From a virus, in the IMG/VR virus record IMGVR_UViG_3300031785_000073, positions 1-20,954 of that record: 20,954 bases of DNA. The stretch is one strand, 5' to 3'. The notes beneath the pieces were generated by a model. The model was not told the origin of the DNA, ran no database searches, and worked only from the letters and a program-made list of their open reading frames with translations. Shown here in pieces: positions 5,389-17,207 of the stretch (position 1 is the stretch's first letter; every line of letters starts with the position of its first letter). Made by a program: the position numbers and the translations under genes.

Positions 5389-5423
5389 TCATTCCCAGAC
5401 CTTTGTTTTTGATGGATTAACAT
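5334..5423 (-). CDS. Possible 29-aa membrane micro-ORF (weak)
   Basis: An ATG at 5421-5423 opens a 29-residue frame that overlaps the end of the 70-aa gene and stops four bases before the ATG of the proline-rich gene. It therefore fills the only real gap in the - strand block. The peptide has a hydrophobic core (G-L-V-V-Y-A-L-V-L-Y-I) and a basic end (N-K-K-I-K-G). There is no clear Shine-Dalgarno. It could equally be chance in AT-rich DNA. Confidence 0.22.
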   Translation of the reverse strand: MLIHQKQRSGNDGLVVYALVLYINKKIKG

Positions 5424-5601
5424 AGGTAGGTAAACAAGTAGCTGCTACTTCTGGACTATTAAATTTTTTGTCTGGAGGAAAATAATTTTGTCTCCTAATA
5501 GTTTTAGCAAAATACATACATCGATTTAAATCTTTCCAGTAAGTTCTATCTCCATAGGGTTCACCATCAAGATAAACGGTTAACATGAAAACTAATAACA
5601 C
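5389..5601 (-). CDS. Small hypothetical protein with two cysteines (70 aa)
   Basis: This protein of 70 residues (from GTG at 5601) or 65 residues (from ATG at 5586) starts with a short hydrophobic run (V-F-M-L-T-V-Y-L), then D-G-E-P-Y-G. Residues 22-33 read W-K-D-L-N-R-C-M-Y-F-A-K, and 51-60 read E-V-A-A-T-C-L-P-T-Y. Cys28 and Cys56 could form a disulfide if the protein is exported or virion-bound. The GTG directly follows the preceding gene's TGA and has AGGTGG a few bases upstream, so I prefer it. I have an impression of short related proteins in other marine phages, but no function. It is part of the group of small genes after the lysis genes. Confidence 0.7.
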   Translation of the reverse strand: MLLVFMLTVYLDGEPYGDRTYWKDLNRCMYFAKTIRRQNYFPPDKKFNSPEVAATCLPTYVNPSKTKVWE

Positions 5602-6084
5602 TCAACCACCTAATGAGAGTATATAAACAAAGCCTACCAATAACCCAACAATCGCAATACAACCTAGAGAGACAAATATAAAATCAGCTGTCTTTCTTTT
5701 AAACTCTGCTCTTGCGTGTACTTGGCGTTGACGCTCTGCACGTATTTCTCGCTCCATTTGAACAAGGTCATTCCAGGCTTCTTTACCCCAAGTATAGGTC
5801 ACTAATTCGTAGATCTGCTTCCTGCCCTCCGCCATTTTTCTCTTTGCAATAAGGGCATCGAAGGCTGCCTGTTCACAGGACTTACTATCAGTAAGTTTTT
5901 TAAATAATGACGGTTTTTTTGCTCTTCGTTCTGCGGCATTAATATCTGATACACACTCAAACCATCGGCTAATGTGACCCATCGCAGATTCTAGCTCACG
6001 ACCTGAATTAACAGCTTTAGTAACACCGTTGATACATTTACCAGCTAGTGCAATAGCGGCTGTGACGGACAATGGATCAGGCAT
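5602..6084 (-). CDS. Tail-anchored helical membrane protein (160 aa)
   Basis: This 160-residue protein starts M-P-D-P-L-S-V-T-A-A-I-A-L-A-G-K. It has a long, mainly helical middle rich in charged residues, including a C-W pair of interest (W41, C44) and a coiled-coil-prone segment at about 105-131. A single C-terminal membrane helix spans residues 134-157 (F-I-F-V-S-L-G-C-I-A-I-V-G-L-L-V-G-F-V-Y). The bulk would face the cytoplasm if it is tail-anchored. I recall similar proteins near endolysins in marine phages without an assigned role. Its position after the M15 peptidase and holin candidate makes a lysis role, for example spanin-like or holin-modulating, possible but unproven. It abuts the neighbouring genes with no gap on either side. 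Confidence 0.78.
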   Translation of the reverse strand: MPDPLSVTAAIALAGKCINGVTKAVNSGRELESAMGHISRWFECVSDINAAERRAKKPSLFKKLTDSKSCEQAAFDALIAKRKMAEGRKQIYELVTYTWGKEAWNDLVQMEREIRAERQRQVHARAEFKRKTADFIFVSLGCIAIVGLLVGFVYILSLGG

Positions 6085-6294
6085 CTACTTCCACCAAATA
6101 AGTGTTGCTACAATGAACCCACAAACACTGGTTGAAATCAACATCAGTATTAAATAGGGATACATCTCTTTACAAAATTGATGTATTGCTTTCTTTTTAG
6201 TTTGCCCGCTATGTGTACGTAAATGTCTAAATAAGTCTTGTGTCATACTTTTACCTTCTTTATCTACACTTTTGATTAAATGTACCCAGGTCAT
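6085..6294 (-). CDS. Small tail-anchored membrane protein (69 aa)
   Basis: This protein has a basic N-terminal half (H-L-R-T-H-S-G-Q-T-K-K-K around residues 24-35) and one membrane helix at about 46-68 (Y-L-I-L-M-L-I-S-T-S-V-C-G-F-I-V-A-T-L-I-W-W). It ends in a single Lys. The ATG overlaps the upstream gene's TGA as ATGA, which supports this start over the internal Met17. It lies between the EF-hand membrane protein and the 160-residue membrane protein, so three membrane proteins in a row follow the endolysin. A role in lysis is an inference from position; no family recognised. Confidence 0.7.
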   Translation of the reverse strand: MTWVHLIKSVDKEGKSMTQDLFRHLRTHSGQTKKKAIHQFCKEMYPYLILMLISTSVCGFIVATLIWWK

Positions 6295-6653
6295 TTTTTA
6301 CTCATCCATGCTGAAACGCCAAAATAACCACATACAACACCTGCCATAGCAAGGTAGTACATAGATATAAGCTCTTCGAGAACGTCTAGCTTTTCAGTAG
6401 ATATTAGGTCGGTAAGTAGTATGATTGTAAGAATAATCATGCTAGATAAAGCAATCCATGACATCTTTTTTTGAGTTTGTAGTTTCTCTAGCTGTATCAG
6501 CTCTTTACTACTCTGTATCTCATCATCACTAACGATGCCATCGTGATCTAAGTCAAAACCTTCGAAACGACTATCCCTCTCCAGAGAATGAGAGCCTTTC
6601 GTAGTTTTTACCGTTGTATTTGAGTGCTTTTTTTCTATTGTTTCCTTTGACAT
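6291..6653 (-). CDS. EF-hand two-TM membrane protein, holin candidate
   Basis: This is a 120-residue protein from ATG 6653. The frame is open further up to a GTG at 6692, which has no better ribosome site. Residues 34-45 form a canonical EF-hand loop, D-L-D-H-D-G-I-V-S-D-D-E, with Ca ligands at positions 1, 3, 5, 9 and 12 and the invariant Gly at 6. A helical charged linker follows, then two membrane helices at about 64-85 and 97-117, ending M-S-K-K. Small two-TM proteins with a single EF-hand next to endolysins recur in marine phages, as I recall. Being adjacent to the M15 peptidase, this is the best holin candidate. Its first 83 bases overlap the end of that peptidase gene in another frame, and the next gene follows by ATGA overlap. 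Confidence 0.75.
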   Translation of the reverse strand: MSKETIEKKHSNTTVKTTKGSHSLERDSRFEGFDLDHDGIVSDDEIQSSKELIQLEKLQTQKKMSWIALSSMIILTIILLTDLISTEKLDVLEELISMYYLAMAGVVCGYFGVSAWMSKK

Positions 6654-7032
6654 AACTACAATGTACCCAGCCTGAGTTTGGTTCTCCTTCACGGTAGAAC
6701 TCTAAAATTAATTGATCGTAGTCCAAATTAAGCATAATCCAATGTGCCAAATCTTCATTGCTTATATGCGGTACTTCAAAATCAACCGCTTCTCCTTTTA
6801 CGTGTTGAGAACTATCACTAGATCCTATCGCACGATTCAGTTCTAAACAACGAAAACCGCTAGATGGGCGCAAAGGCACCCCATAATTGGTTCTAACAGG
6901 TTCTAGTATGTTTAGGCATACATTCTTCAAAGATTCTATTTGCGTGTCGTCAGGAGCGTTTTTAATGCCTTTACGCTCTGCTGTAGAAGACTTGGTTAGC
7001 TCCTGTAAGGTAAAATGGTCAGATAAACGCAT
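6571..7032 (-). CDS. M15-family peptidase, probable endolysin
   Basis: This 153-residue single-domain zinc peptidase of the VanY/M15 (Peptidase_M15_3-like) group is expected to cut peptide cross-links of host peptidoglycan at lysis. The visible signature is S-S-G-F-R-C at 57-62, S-Q-H-V-K-G-E-A-V-D-F at 75-85 (Zn ligands H77 and D84), a likely catalytic Glu111 in Q-L-I-L-E-F, and W-V-H-C-S at 122-126 (third ligand H124). All expected metal and catalytic residues are present. There is no signal peptide, so it needs a holin, and membrane proteins follow it directly. It starts one base after the TAA of the 1121-residue gene. An alternative role as a virion-borne lysin is possible given its place within structural genes. 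Confidence 0.9.
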   Translation of the reverse strand: MRLSDHFTLQELTKSSTAERKGIKNAPDDTQIESLKNVCLNILEPVRTNYGVPLRPSSGFRCLELNRAIGSSDSSQHVKGEAVDFEVPHISNEDLAHWIMLNLDYDQLILEFYREGEPNSGWVHCSYVKGNNRKKALKYNGKNYERLSFSGEG

Positions 7033-14719: not shown

Positions 14720-17019
14720 TATCGCCTCCCATCAGGTCTAAGGTCAAGTCTAGTGTCCCCTAACGTCCAGTTAACATTAGATATATTACTCTCAATACGT
14801 AAAGCTATTTGTCTTGCTCTAGCTCGAATAAAAGCCTGTTGCGTGGTAGGTAATACCGCATTAGTTGAATTAGTCGCTAACGTGTCACCAGGAAAGTTTC
14901 TAGTCTTTAACACAAAATCTACCTGATTTGTTGCTGCAATATCAGGAATAATACGACTAACTAGCATAAAATTATTGCCATCGGGGTCTAAATCAAAATC
15001 AGCAGACTCAACAAAACTAGTCATAGCTGCACCATCATCAGTCGTGCCTGTCTCATGAGTAAATACTGAAGTATTACCATTACTGTCATTACCTGCCGCT
15101 CTAGGTAAAGTATGAATATTAAAATCTAACCAGGCAGTGCGTGATAATGTTCCTATGTCCCAAGTTTTTTCGGCATAATTATATTTAACGTACTTATCAT
15201 TTTCTTCAGAACCAGAAGACGGATAGAACCAAAATATCTCATCAAACATTTTATTCGAACCCGCTACAATTTTTTCGCTTTGATCAATATTAATATCGTC
15301 AAAAATATGCCGTAACACCGTGCAAGGTATAATAGATAAGCGACCTGCATACACATAAAAGTTTTCTGTACTCATCCAAAACACACTATCAGCAACTGTG
15401 GTTACTGCGTTAGGCCCTATTAAAGCTGTGTTACTAGCTAATAAAGTAATACCAAAAGTATTAGGAGGTCCTATAAATTTCATAGAATGCGTATTAACAT
15501 CTGTGTAAATTAATATTTCTTGTTTTGTTTTTACTGCACGAATAATTTCTGAACCAGAAGATATGGTCAAGCCACCTGCGGTATTAGTAATTCTTGGTGT
15601 CCACACAAAAGGGTTTTCTTGATCTGAAAATCTTACATGCAAAGGATTACGTACTGTAGAGCCAACTTCATTACAGCCGAATGCTAGAACGTGTCTATCG
15701 TCAGTTGATACCATTATTTGTCTAACAATAGTTGGTGCGTCTGATGCACCTGATTGTGAGGCTAAATCAGTAGCTCTTGTTCCTGTTGTTAGAGTTCTAT
15801 CCCAGTAGTAAGGGGTGTTATCTTTAGCGTTAAAAACTAAATCTTCACCAAAATTATCTTGAAACCATAATCGCAACTGCAAATTAGGACTAGTGTTATC
15901 TGATAAATTACCCCAACCAGAAAAACTATTTGCTAGTGTGACTGTGTCACCATCACTATGAGATGCGTTAGCAGTTGTGGGAGAAGTTCGGTCAGTTCCA
16001 CTATAAACATTGGTACCTCTAGCAGAACGGGTTAGATCACTTAATGTAGCCGTTGATACAGTGTCATATAGTATCAATTCATTATTAATTTTTATTAATC
16101 CTAAAAATTTTACACTAGCACTACTACTAGCCGCAGCTGCTGTTGTACCGTCTGCACCTCTGGTCAAACCACTAAAGGTATTATTAGCATTAGCTGTATA
16201 AATAATATTTTCACTACCAATTTTTATTGTGCCTCTTGCTGGAAAACTAGAACTATCAGCTACAGCGATAGTTGCAGCATCTATCTCGATGTCAACAGAT
16301 AAAGTTGTATCTGACGGTAAAGTAAAACCTGTAACACTAGTTAAAGTAATCGAAGTAGCACTATTGCTTACTGCACCATTTAAAGTGGTTACTGCGACAT
16401 CTTGTAAATTACCGCCATATAAACCAGCACTCCAACCAACGCCACCCACTGCTGAACTAGATCCTGTTGTTAATTCATATTTTGCCGTTACTGTTCCGCC
16501 ACCTGTACCAGCTCCAGACGCTACATCTCCAGTGTCTATTTTATATTGTGAGGAACTTAACACTTCGGTAATACGATGATTAGTATTTATGGCAGAAGCA
16601 GCTACACCTTGAAATGTACTTGCACCTGAAAATGTAACATAATCTCCTGTTGATGCACCATGAGCCGTGTCTGTTACGGTTAATACAGAGCTACTGCTAG
16701 TAGAAGTAAAAGGATTAGAAAGACCCGTTTGTGTATCACGAAGAGGAGTTATATCAAAATAATTACCACCTTCTTCGATTAAAAATTTATCACTAGTTCC
16801 TGTACCCATAAATTTAGAACCGTCTAAAGCAACCCAACTAAATAAAGACCGCACTGTACCTAAAATAGTAGAGGTGCTTAGTTTCAACCAACCGCCTAAC
16901 TTTTCAGGACGGCCTTTACGAAAGCGTATTAAACTAGAATCAAACCAACCCATTTCATTTGCATAAGACGTACTTTCTTTATTAACTCCTGGTCTAAATT
17001 GTAGTTTTACTAATGGCAT
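14719..17019 (-). CDS. P22 gp10-like tail / packaged-DNA stabilisation protein (766 aa)
   Basis: The N-terminus M-P-L-V-K-L-Q-F-R-P-G-V-N-K-E, then G-W-F-D-S-S-L-I-R-F-R-K-G-R-P-E-K-L-G-G-W (24-44), is the hallmark of a marine phage family I relate to P22 gp10 (Phage_stabilise). In P22, gp10 attaches to the tail below the portal and keeps DNA inside. Beta-propeller-like strands follow (from about 370), including W-F-Q-D-N-F-G-E-D-L-V-F-N-A-K and F-W-M-S-T-E-N-F-Y-V-Y-A-G-R-L. The end is N-W-T-L-G-D-T-R-L-D-L-R-P-D-G-R-R. Between residues about 100 and 362 sit extra beta modules, including a duplicated I-K-I-x-x-E-x-I-x-Y element, so it is longer than P22 gp10 (about 470). TAATG junctions join it to genes on both sides. 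The gp10 relation is by pattern only. Confidence 0.75.
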   Translation of the reverse strand: MPLVKLQFRPGVNKESTSYANEMGWFDSSLIRFRKGRPEKLGGWLKLSTSTILGTVRSLFSWVALDGSKFMGTGTSDKFLIEEGGNYFDITPLRDTQTGLSNPFTSTSSSSVLTVTDTAHGASTGDYVTFSGASTFQGVAASAINTNHRITEVLSSSQYKIDTGDVASGAGTGGGTVTAKYELTTGSSSAVGGVGWSAGLYGGNLQDVAVTTLNGAVSNSATSITLTSVTGFTLPSDTTLSVDIEIDAATIAVADSSSFPARGTIKIGSENIIYTANANNTFSGLTRGADGTTAAAASSSASVKFLGLIKINNELILYDTVSTATLSDLTRSARGTNVYSGTDRTSPTTANASHSDGDTVTLANSFSGWGNLSDNTSPNLQLRLWFQDNFGEDLVFNAKDNTPYYWDRTLTTGTRATDLASQSGASDAPTIVRQIMVSTDDRHVLAFGCNEVGSTVRNPLHVRFSDQENPFVWTPRITNTAGGLTISSGSEIIRAVKTKQEILIYTDVNTHSMKFIGPPNTFGITLLASNTALIGPNAVTTVADSVFWMSTENFYVYAGRLSIIPCTVLRHIFDDINIDQSEKIVAGSNKMFDEIFWFYPSSGSEENDKYVKYNYAEKTWDIGTLSRTAWLDFNIHTLPRAAGNDSNGNTSVFTHETGTTDDGAAMTSFVESADFDLDPDGNNFMLVSRIIPDIAATNQVDFVLKTRNFPGDTLATNSTNAVLPTTQQAFIRARARQIALRIESNISNVNWTLGDTRLDLRPDGRR
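16012..16242 (-). repeat. Duplicated beta module inside the gp10-like protein
   Basis: Residues 260-291 (G-T-I-K-I-G-S-E-N-I-I-Y, then L-T-R-G-A-D-G-T) and 305-336 (G-L-I-K-I-N-N-E-L-I-L-Y, then L-T-R-S-A-R-G-T) share the same spacing and key residues. They are two diverged copies of one module. Confidence 0.65.
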
Positions 17020-17207
17020 TATAATCTCAACAATAAAGTGATAATCACACCTGCCATGCCTGTCAACAAAGCAAATGTATGTTGTCTAATATTTCTTTCA
17101 ATATTTTCTAGTCGGTTAAATACAGTTTTATCTCGTTCCTCAGAACGGGCTACATGCGCTTCTAGTTTTGCATCTAGTTCATGTACTTTTTCAGTTGCAT
17201 CATTCAT
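17019..17207 (-). CDS. XhlA-like small coiled-coil membrane protein (62 aa)
   Basis: Residues 1-42 form an acidic/basic coiled coil (H-E-L-D-A-K-L-E-A-H-V-A-R-S-E-E-R-D-K-T-V-F-N-R-L-E-N-I-E). A single C-terminal membrane helix at about 44-61 (F-A-L-L-T-G-M-A-G-V-I-I-T-L-L-L) ends in R-L. The coiled coil followed by a short C-terminal helix matches the layout of the haemolysin XhlA-like family, which acts with holins in some Bacillus prophages. That is a fold-level comparison, not proof. It sits between a tail fibre and a tail protein, far from the endolysin, so it may act at the membrane for adsorption or ejection rather than lysis. Its stop overlaps the next ATG (TAATG). Confidence 0.68.
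   Translation of the reverse strand: MNDATEKVHELDAKLEAHVARSEERDKTVFNRLENIERNIRQHTFALLTGMAGVIITLLLRL

Follow-up and report, generated by a model that had tools for sequence, protein, structure and literature searches.

Class II holins, for example lambdoid S21, have two transmembrane (TM) segments with both termini in the cytoplasm (N-in/C-in), and we know of no class II holin that carries an EF-hand loop. Within EF-hand loops, an invariant glutamate at position 12 favours Ca2+ over Mg2+, and a single unpaired loop is usually of modest affinity. In mycobacteriophages of cluster F1, the N-in/C-in protein LysF1a, which has two TM segments, sets lysis timing jointly with LysF1b (PMC13056207). Here, a virus record of 20,954 bases (IMGVR_UViG_3300031785_000073, positions 1 to 20,954; hereafter the window) was analysed, whose minus strand encodes at 6291-6653 a protein of 120 amino acids with an EF-hand-type loop and two predicted TM segments. 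The features of this locus are as follows.

6291-6653, minus strand: gene of the EF-hand/two-TM protein, ATG start; relative of PHROG 27150 and holin-like lysis-cassette protein, with family members at 499 loci
6519-6554, minus strand: EF-hand-type, predicted Ca2+-binding loop of 12 residues, DLDHDGIVSDDE (amino acids 34-45), from pattern, conservation and profile match to calmodulin-type EF-hands in the PDB
6399-6455, minus strand: TM1 (amino acids about 67-85), a continuation of the loop's exit helix (amino acids 43-80 in the model), from hydropathy and model
6315-6371, minus strand: TM2 (amino acids about 95-113), with the small-residue-rich stretch AMAGVVCGYFG and the basic C-terminal tail SKK, from hydropathy, model and conservation
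6571-7032, minus strand: M15_3 peptidase endolysin, upstream neighbour, from Pfam and PHROG; 83-nt overlap with the EF-hand gene
6085-6294, minus strand: 69-residue protein with one C-terminal TM segment, downstream neighbour, overlapping the end of the EF-hand gene
5602-6084, minus strand: 160-residue PHROG 32327-like protein with a C-terminal TM segment, recurrent partner in EF-hand cassettes, from PHROG match and neighbourhoods
5389-5601, minus strand: 70-residue protein, last in the block, from its reading frame

In transcription order, the block runs from the endolysin through the EF-hand gene to the genes for the 69-, 160- and 70-residue proteins, and the start of the EF-hand gene overlaps the 3' end of the endolysin gene. 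The endolysin was matched by Pfam M15_3 (E = 6.5e-20) and by PHROG 894, 'endolysin' (E = 2.5e-41), and a TM or signal segment is not apparent in it. Its nearest cultured relatives belong to pelagiphages such as HTVC035P and HTVC010P, hence the host of the window phage is plausibly a SAR11-type bacterium. Long genes, probably encoding structural proteins, lie upstream of the endolysin gene. Pfam and PHROG searches with the 69-residue protein gave no family match. ATG at 6653 is the likely start of the EF-hand gene, because contig L002, a close relative, has GTA in place of the upstream GTG at 6692. Comparison with contig L005 in the EF-hand frame revealed 35, 21 and 60 differences at codon positions 1, 2 and 3, respectively, indicating that the frame is under protein-level selection. 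Elsewhere in the window (17019-17207, minus strand), a 62-residue tail-anchored, coiled-coil-like protein with a weak match to PHROG 1193, 'hemolysin', is encoded; in other contigs, EF-2TM genes are preceded by genes for similar small proteins (cluster 10).

A first-pass annotation of this DNA had described a canonical EF-hand with all calcium ligand positions filled, placed ahead of two membrane helices in the gene following the endolysin. The overlap with the M15 endolysin gene, the hydropathy profile and the structural model agree with this arrangement. The loop itself matches the full PROSITE-type EF-hand pattern, with D1, D3, D5, G6, S9 and E12 followed by a hydrophobic residue, so that every ligand position is occupied. 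Among the 96 window ORFs of at least 35 amino acids only the EF-hand protein contains this pattern, which was obtained in 181 of 200,000 shuffles of the same protein and in eight of the ORFs outside the family, which total 2.18 million residues. Relatives were gathered from viral-contig scans with several family members as queries, one of which matched at least 595 viral contigs. These scans yielded 288 unique proteins, 282 of them complete at the N-terminus, and all 282 keep the loop, with ligands at positions 1, 3, 5, 9 and 12, glycine at position 6 and a hydrophobic residue at position 8. The mean pairwise identity of the family is 42% (loop, 65%; rest, 40%). In the weighted alignment, D1, G6 and E12 reach 1.00 and D5 reaches 0.99, other strong columns being Q61, M64, W66, A68, V107 and A115, while the codons of the ligand positions vary freely at synonymous sites. 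As a control for loop bias, residues 39-112 of the protein from phage DC31, which leave the loop out, were used as the query. The loop was present at 79 of 80 loci, the one exception being cut by a contig end, and this result ruled out a search bias towards the loop. The loop, kept by all 282 complete relatives, those retrieved with the loop-free query included, is not a product of chance.

The family profile aligned with the EF-hands of EhCaBP and calmodulin in the PDB (1jfj and others), over the loop and the exit helix (E = 1e-9 to 1e-6). Single-sequence Pfam EF-hand models scored the window protein below their cut-offs, because its incoming helix is short or absent. In the model this helix comprises residues 29-33 only (five residues, modest confidence); 51 of 285 relatives have at most eight residues ahead of the loop, too few for an incoming helix, and the CRP-9 member begins MVVDF-DIDGDGQITAEE, leaving no room for one. 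The term 'canonical EF-hand' therefore suits the loop but not a full helix-loop-helix: the protein appears to be a half EF-hand, in which a single loop is followed by a long exit helix that turns into TM1. From its homology to Ca2+-binding loops of solved structure, Ca2+ binding by the loop is very probable; position 12 is always Glu, the bidentate Ca2+ ligand.

Hydropathy analysis placed the two TM segments after the loop, at about residues 67-85 and 95-113 (computed on L002, which has the same 120-residue layout). An AlphaFold model (mean pLDDT 76.9) contains helices at 43-80, starting at the loop, and at 86-119, with pLDDT of about 83-95 over the membrane hairpin and 50-66 over the N-terminal 40 residues. 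Foldseek searches with the EF-hand protein against BFVD and PDB revealed no similar structure. Lys and Arg were counted in the 282 proteins: the 15-residue flank ahead of TM1 holds 2.8 on average, the hairpin 0.85 and the 15-residue flank behind TM2 2.05. The summed positive charge of both termini exceeds that of the hairpin in every protein. This charge bias favours a cytoplasmic location of both ends, the topology of class II holins; the call is not strong, because the N-terminal flank carries a net negative charge (+2.8/-4.0 per 15 residues on average).

The window protein was matched by the PHROG 27150 profile over the exit helix and TM hairpin (E = 6.5e-9), and two distant relatives gave E-values of 0.0032 and 2.4e-4. 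PHROG 27150 is a family of unknown function, and the relatives are phage proteins annotated 'hypothetical'. No NCBIfam model scored above its cut-off for the EF-hand protein, and the Pfam, PHROG and NCBIfam matches included no EF-hand-bearing class II holin. A scan of genome contigs with one query returned a single weak match (26% identity, contig L263), which went unrecognised by the family profile. On the strength of this one query, a bacterial origin was rejected and the family appears to be viral. Its members in cultured phages come from Roseobacter phages CRP-9, CRP-1 and CRP-345, Limnohabitans phage DC31, Sinorhizobium phage phiN3, HTVC008M and Melnitz. The first-pass annotation had connected the loop with the timing of lysis in calcium-rich seawater. 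As stated, this idea fails: the freshwater phage DC31 and the Sinorhizobium phage phiN3 keep the loop, and external Ca2+ would reach a loop on the cytoplasmic side only after a leak. Literature searches for EF-hands together with holins or lysis cassettes returned unrelated papers only, with no EF-hand holin described.

To describe the neighbourhoods, the loci were grouped into 45 sequence clusters (85% identity, single linkage). In 26 of these clusters, an endolysin and/or spanin gene is found on the same strand at a distance of up to 2.5 kb; 13 have no recognised lysis gene nearby, and six are T4-like, with the EF-hand gene not beside a lysin. Residence in a lysis cassette, as expected of a class II-like holin, is thus found in the window and in 26/45 clusters, but not for the T4-like members. 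When 111 neighbouring proteins were scanned against PHROG, endolysin, peptidase and Rz-like spanin families led the matches; a Pfam scan of cassette neighbours added one GTA_holin_3TM. In CRP-9 and CRP-1 the EF-hand gene directly precedes the annotated endolysin gene, and in CRP-345 it precedes a spanin and an endolysin gene. The cassette of DC31 is ordered PHROG 32327-like, EF-2TM, Rz-like and endopeptidase (L-alanyl-D-glutamate peptidase), homologous Rz proteins matching Rz-like spanin PHROGs. Apart from the u-spanin itself, the EF-hand protein is the sole two-TM protein beside the endolysin and u-spanin of CRP-9, the other very small two-TM candidate of that genome (54 amino acids) being encoded in the early region. 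The PHROG 32327-like partner, with its C-terminal TM segment, lies just upstream of the EF-hand gene in many clusters and downstream in the window; its function is unknown, and it often starts MxDPxxxx (window 5602-6084, minus strand; clusters c0/c10).

Phage DSL-LC04 provides a direct comparison. Its cassette consists of the MSDLDPIIGTAK... protein, which has one C-terminal TM segment and, judged by eye, resembles the PHROG 32327-like partner, followed by a 'holin of 3TMs' and an M15 endolysin 45% identical to that of the window. The 'holin of 3TMs', directly before the endolysin, is a PF11351 protein (E = 6.2e-7). Hence, a recognised holin sits here in the slot that is filled elsewhere by the EF-hand protein. 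The 'putative lysozyme' gp73 of CRP-207 (L010:3292-3873), next to a family member, looks like an N-terminal TM segment plus a coiled coil; the label is doubtful and carried no weight in the analysis. Pelagiphage HTVC023P (L505:3802-4167) encodes a different 121-residue protein with the EF-type loop DKNKDGKISGED and one TM segment, as the fourth gene after an M15 peptidase.

In the T4-like members (HTVC008M, Melnitz, phiN3 and others) the EF-hand gene is located between the genes for the baseplate hub assembly catalyst and the tape-measure protein; the member in HTVC008M lies at L093:3959-4291 and Melnitz-3 gp108 at L094:4001-4330. T4-like phages scatter their lysis genes. The T4 holin profile PF11031 matched none of the 15 T4-like family-bearing records, with no positive control responding. 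The Melnitz methylophage paper uses the word holin only within 'pinholin'; its authors suggested that a curli pore (CsgGF) is the analogue of a pinholin (PMC9004378).

GTA_holin_3TM (PF11351) was found in six of 48 family-bearing records (G001, G002 and G036-G039), and the other 42, many of them fragments, gave no match. G001 and G002 are 34-kb relatives of the window phage, in which this gene follows terL, directly or after one small gene, and is far from the M15 endolysin (L509:1459-1851 and L510:1492-1884). Over 6.9 kb, contig L002 of G001 shares 93% identity with the window, thus the window phage probably carries GTA_holin_3TM beyond the window end. In G036-G039 the coordinates place GTA_holin_3TM no more than about 0.5 kb downstream of the EF-hand gene, and in L475 (G037) it is the next gene. 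PF11351 had no match on the window protein or the window record, and no member was found in CRP-9 or DC31. An hhalign comparison of the family with GTA_holin_3TM (probability 0.5%) gave no profile relation, and the EF-hand protein as a divergent GTA_holin_3TM was ruled out for lack of profile support. With a GTA-type holin in the close 34-kb relatives, the EF-hand protein need not be the holin of the window phage, in which it may act as a second holin or a holin regulator. The first-pass designation as a holin candidate thus gains from lysis-cassette residence with endolysin and Rz/u-spanin and from the class II-like predicted topology, but does not extend to the holin of this particular phage, given GTA_holin_3TM in the 34-kb relatives and in four other family records.

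The EF-hand/two-TM family is real, widespread, unannotated and holin-like, with an invariant Ca2+-type loop. Read from sequence, it combines this loop and a TM hairpin with conservation, lysis-cassette residence and a slot common to a known holin family. The label 'holin-like lysis protein' is well supported by cassette residence, the holin slot in DSL-LC04 and the predicted N-in/C-in topology. We put a probability of about one half on the full explanation, in which a holin-class lysis protein permeabilises the inner membrane and is subject to feedback through a Ca2+-fed loop. The protein, with both ends cytoplasmic, would gather in the inner membrane late in infection, and we infer that it helps to permeabilise this membrane, so that the M15 endolysin encoded alongside could reach the wall; in phages that have spanins, these would then finish lysis. 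The Ca2+ feedback is speculative. In the Ca2+-poor cytoplasm the loop would presumably be empty or bound to Mg2+, and the first leaks would admit Ca2+, upon which the loop could close and order or stiffen the TM1 helix. Oligomerisation might thereby accelerate, giving positive feedback at triggering rather than a seawater sensor.

A purely structural loop, always loaded with Mg2+ or Ca2+ and serving the folding of a lysis protein or capping its TM1 helix with no sensing, is a serious competitor to the feedback part of this explanation, not to the holin part, and we give it somewhat less than an even chance. Invariance alone fits sensing and structure alike, the loop starts the 43-80 helix of the model, and the modest affinity usual for a single unpaired loop also suits a structural role. 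However, Glu at position 12 in 282/282 proteins favours Ca2+ over Mg2+, and constant metal loading is not expected if the topology holds, because the predicted cytoplasmic side is Ca2+-poor. At the other extreme, a functionless chance motif in an overlapping frame might have been suspected from the 83 nt shared with the endolysin gene and the Pfam EF-hand scores below cut-off; conservation of the loop in all 282 relatives refutes it, protein-level selection speaks against it as well, and its probability is negligible.

It is possible, though doubtful, that the EF-hand protein is a partner of a holin, either an antiholin or a regulator of lysis timing, while another holin, for instance the GTA_holin_3TM after terL in relatives of the window phage, forms the pore. 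The six records that hold both families are in keeping with such a partnership, a ligand-binding cytoplasmic loop suits a regulator, and paired holin-like timing proteins are known from LysF1a and LysF1b (PMC13056207). On the other hand, GTA_holin_3TM was not found in 42/48 records (many of them fragments), and CRP-9 and DC31 gave no PF11351 match and have no other multi-TM protein of unknown role in the cassette, which would leave a pure regulator without an obvious target in these phages. Still less probable is a virion or DNA-ejection protein that is packaged with the tail and inserts into the host inner membrane, its loop being loaded by extracellular Ca2+ at entry. Such a role would suit the gene position between hub assembly catalyst and tape-measure genes in T4-like members and the long, probably structural genes upstream of the endolysin in the window. 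Yet most other clusters have Rz/u-spanin and endolysin neighbours, the scattering of lysis genes in T4-like phages weakens the positional argument, and the Melnitz paper mentions no holin (PMC9004378). The holin-class explanation extended to its widest form, a widespread phage-only family of calcium-gated holins that assembles cooperatively once Ca2+ from the first leak fills the loop, makes lysis switch-like and also serves T4-like pelagiphages and methylophages without a described holin, strikes us as unlikely, if less so than the virion protein.

For many aquatic phages in which no lysis protein of this kind is annotated, the family supplies a candidate; at least 595 viral contigs were matched by one query. 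Melnitz carries a member, though its paper describes no holin gene (PMC9004378). If the loop regulates pore formation, a divalent-cation switch would, to our knowledge, be built into a holin-class protein for the first time and would offer a clear molecular handle on lysis triggering. An EF loop without variation is a surprise in a phage lysis gene even if its role is structural only.

Compared with known systems, the family meets several of them in part. PHROG 27150 includes a match to the HTVC008M protein from the loop onward (E = 2.4e-4), whereas its annotation holds neither a lysis role nor an EF loop. Calmodulin and EhCaBP (PDB 1jfj and others) share the loop and exiting helix that align with the family profile; in contrast to them, the family protein has one unpaired loop, a short or absent incoming helix and an exit helix that runs into a TM segment. 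GTA_holin_3TM (PF11351) is likewise a small TM protein with an N-terminal helix, a TM hairpin and a basic tail, and in DSL-LC04 its gene immediately precedes that of the M15 endolysin within a similarly composed cassette, but it lacks the EF loop, and both families co-occur in some phages. LysF1a and LysF1b, likened here by description, belong to another kind of host and come with no mention of an EF-hand in the abstract, yet LysF1a, a two-TM, N-in/C-in lysis-cassette protein, has the topology predicted for the family and shares the control of timing with a second holin-like protein (PMC13056207). Class II holins such as lambdoid S21 resemble the family in predicted topology, size, basic C-terminus and the company of endolysin and spanin genes.
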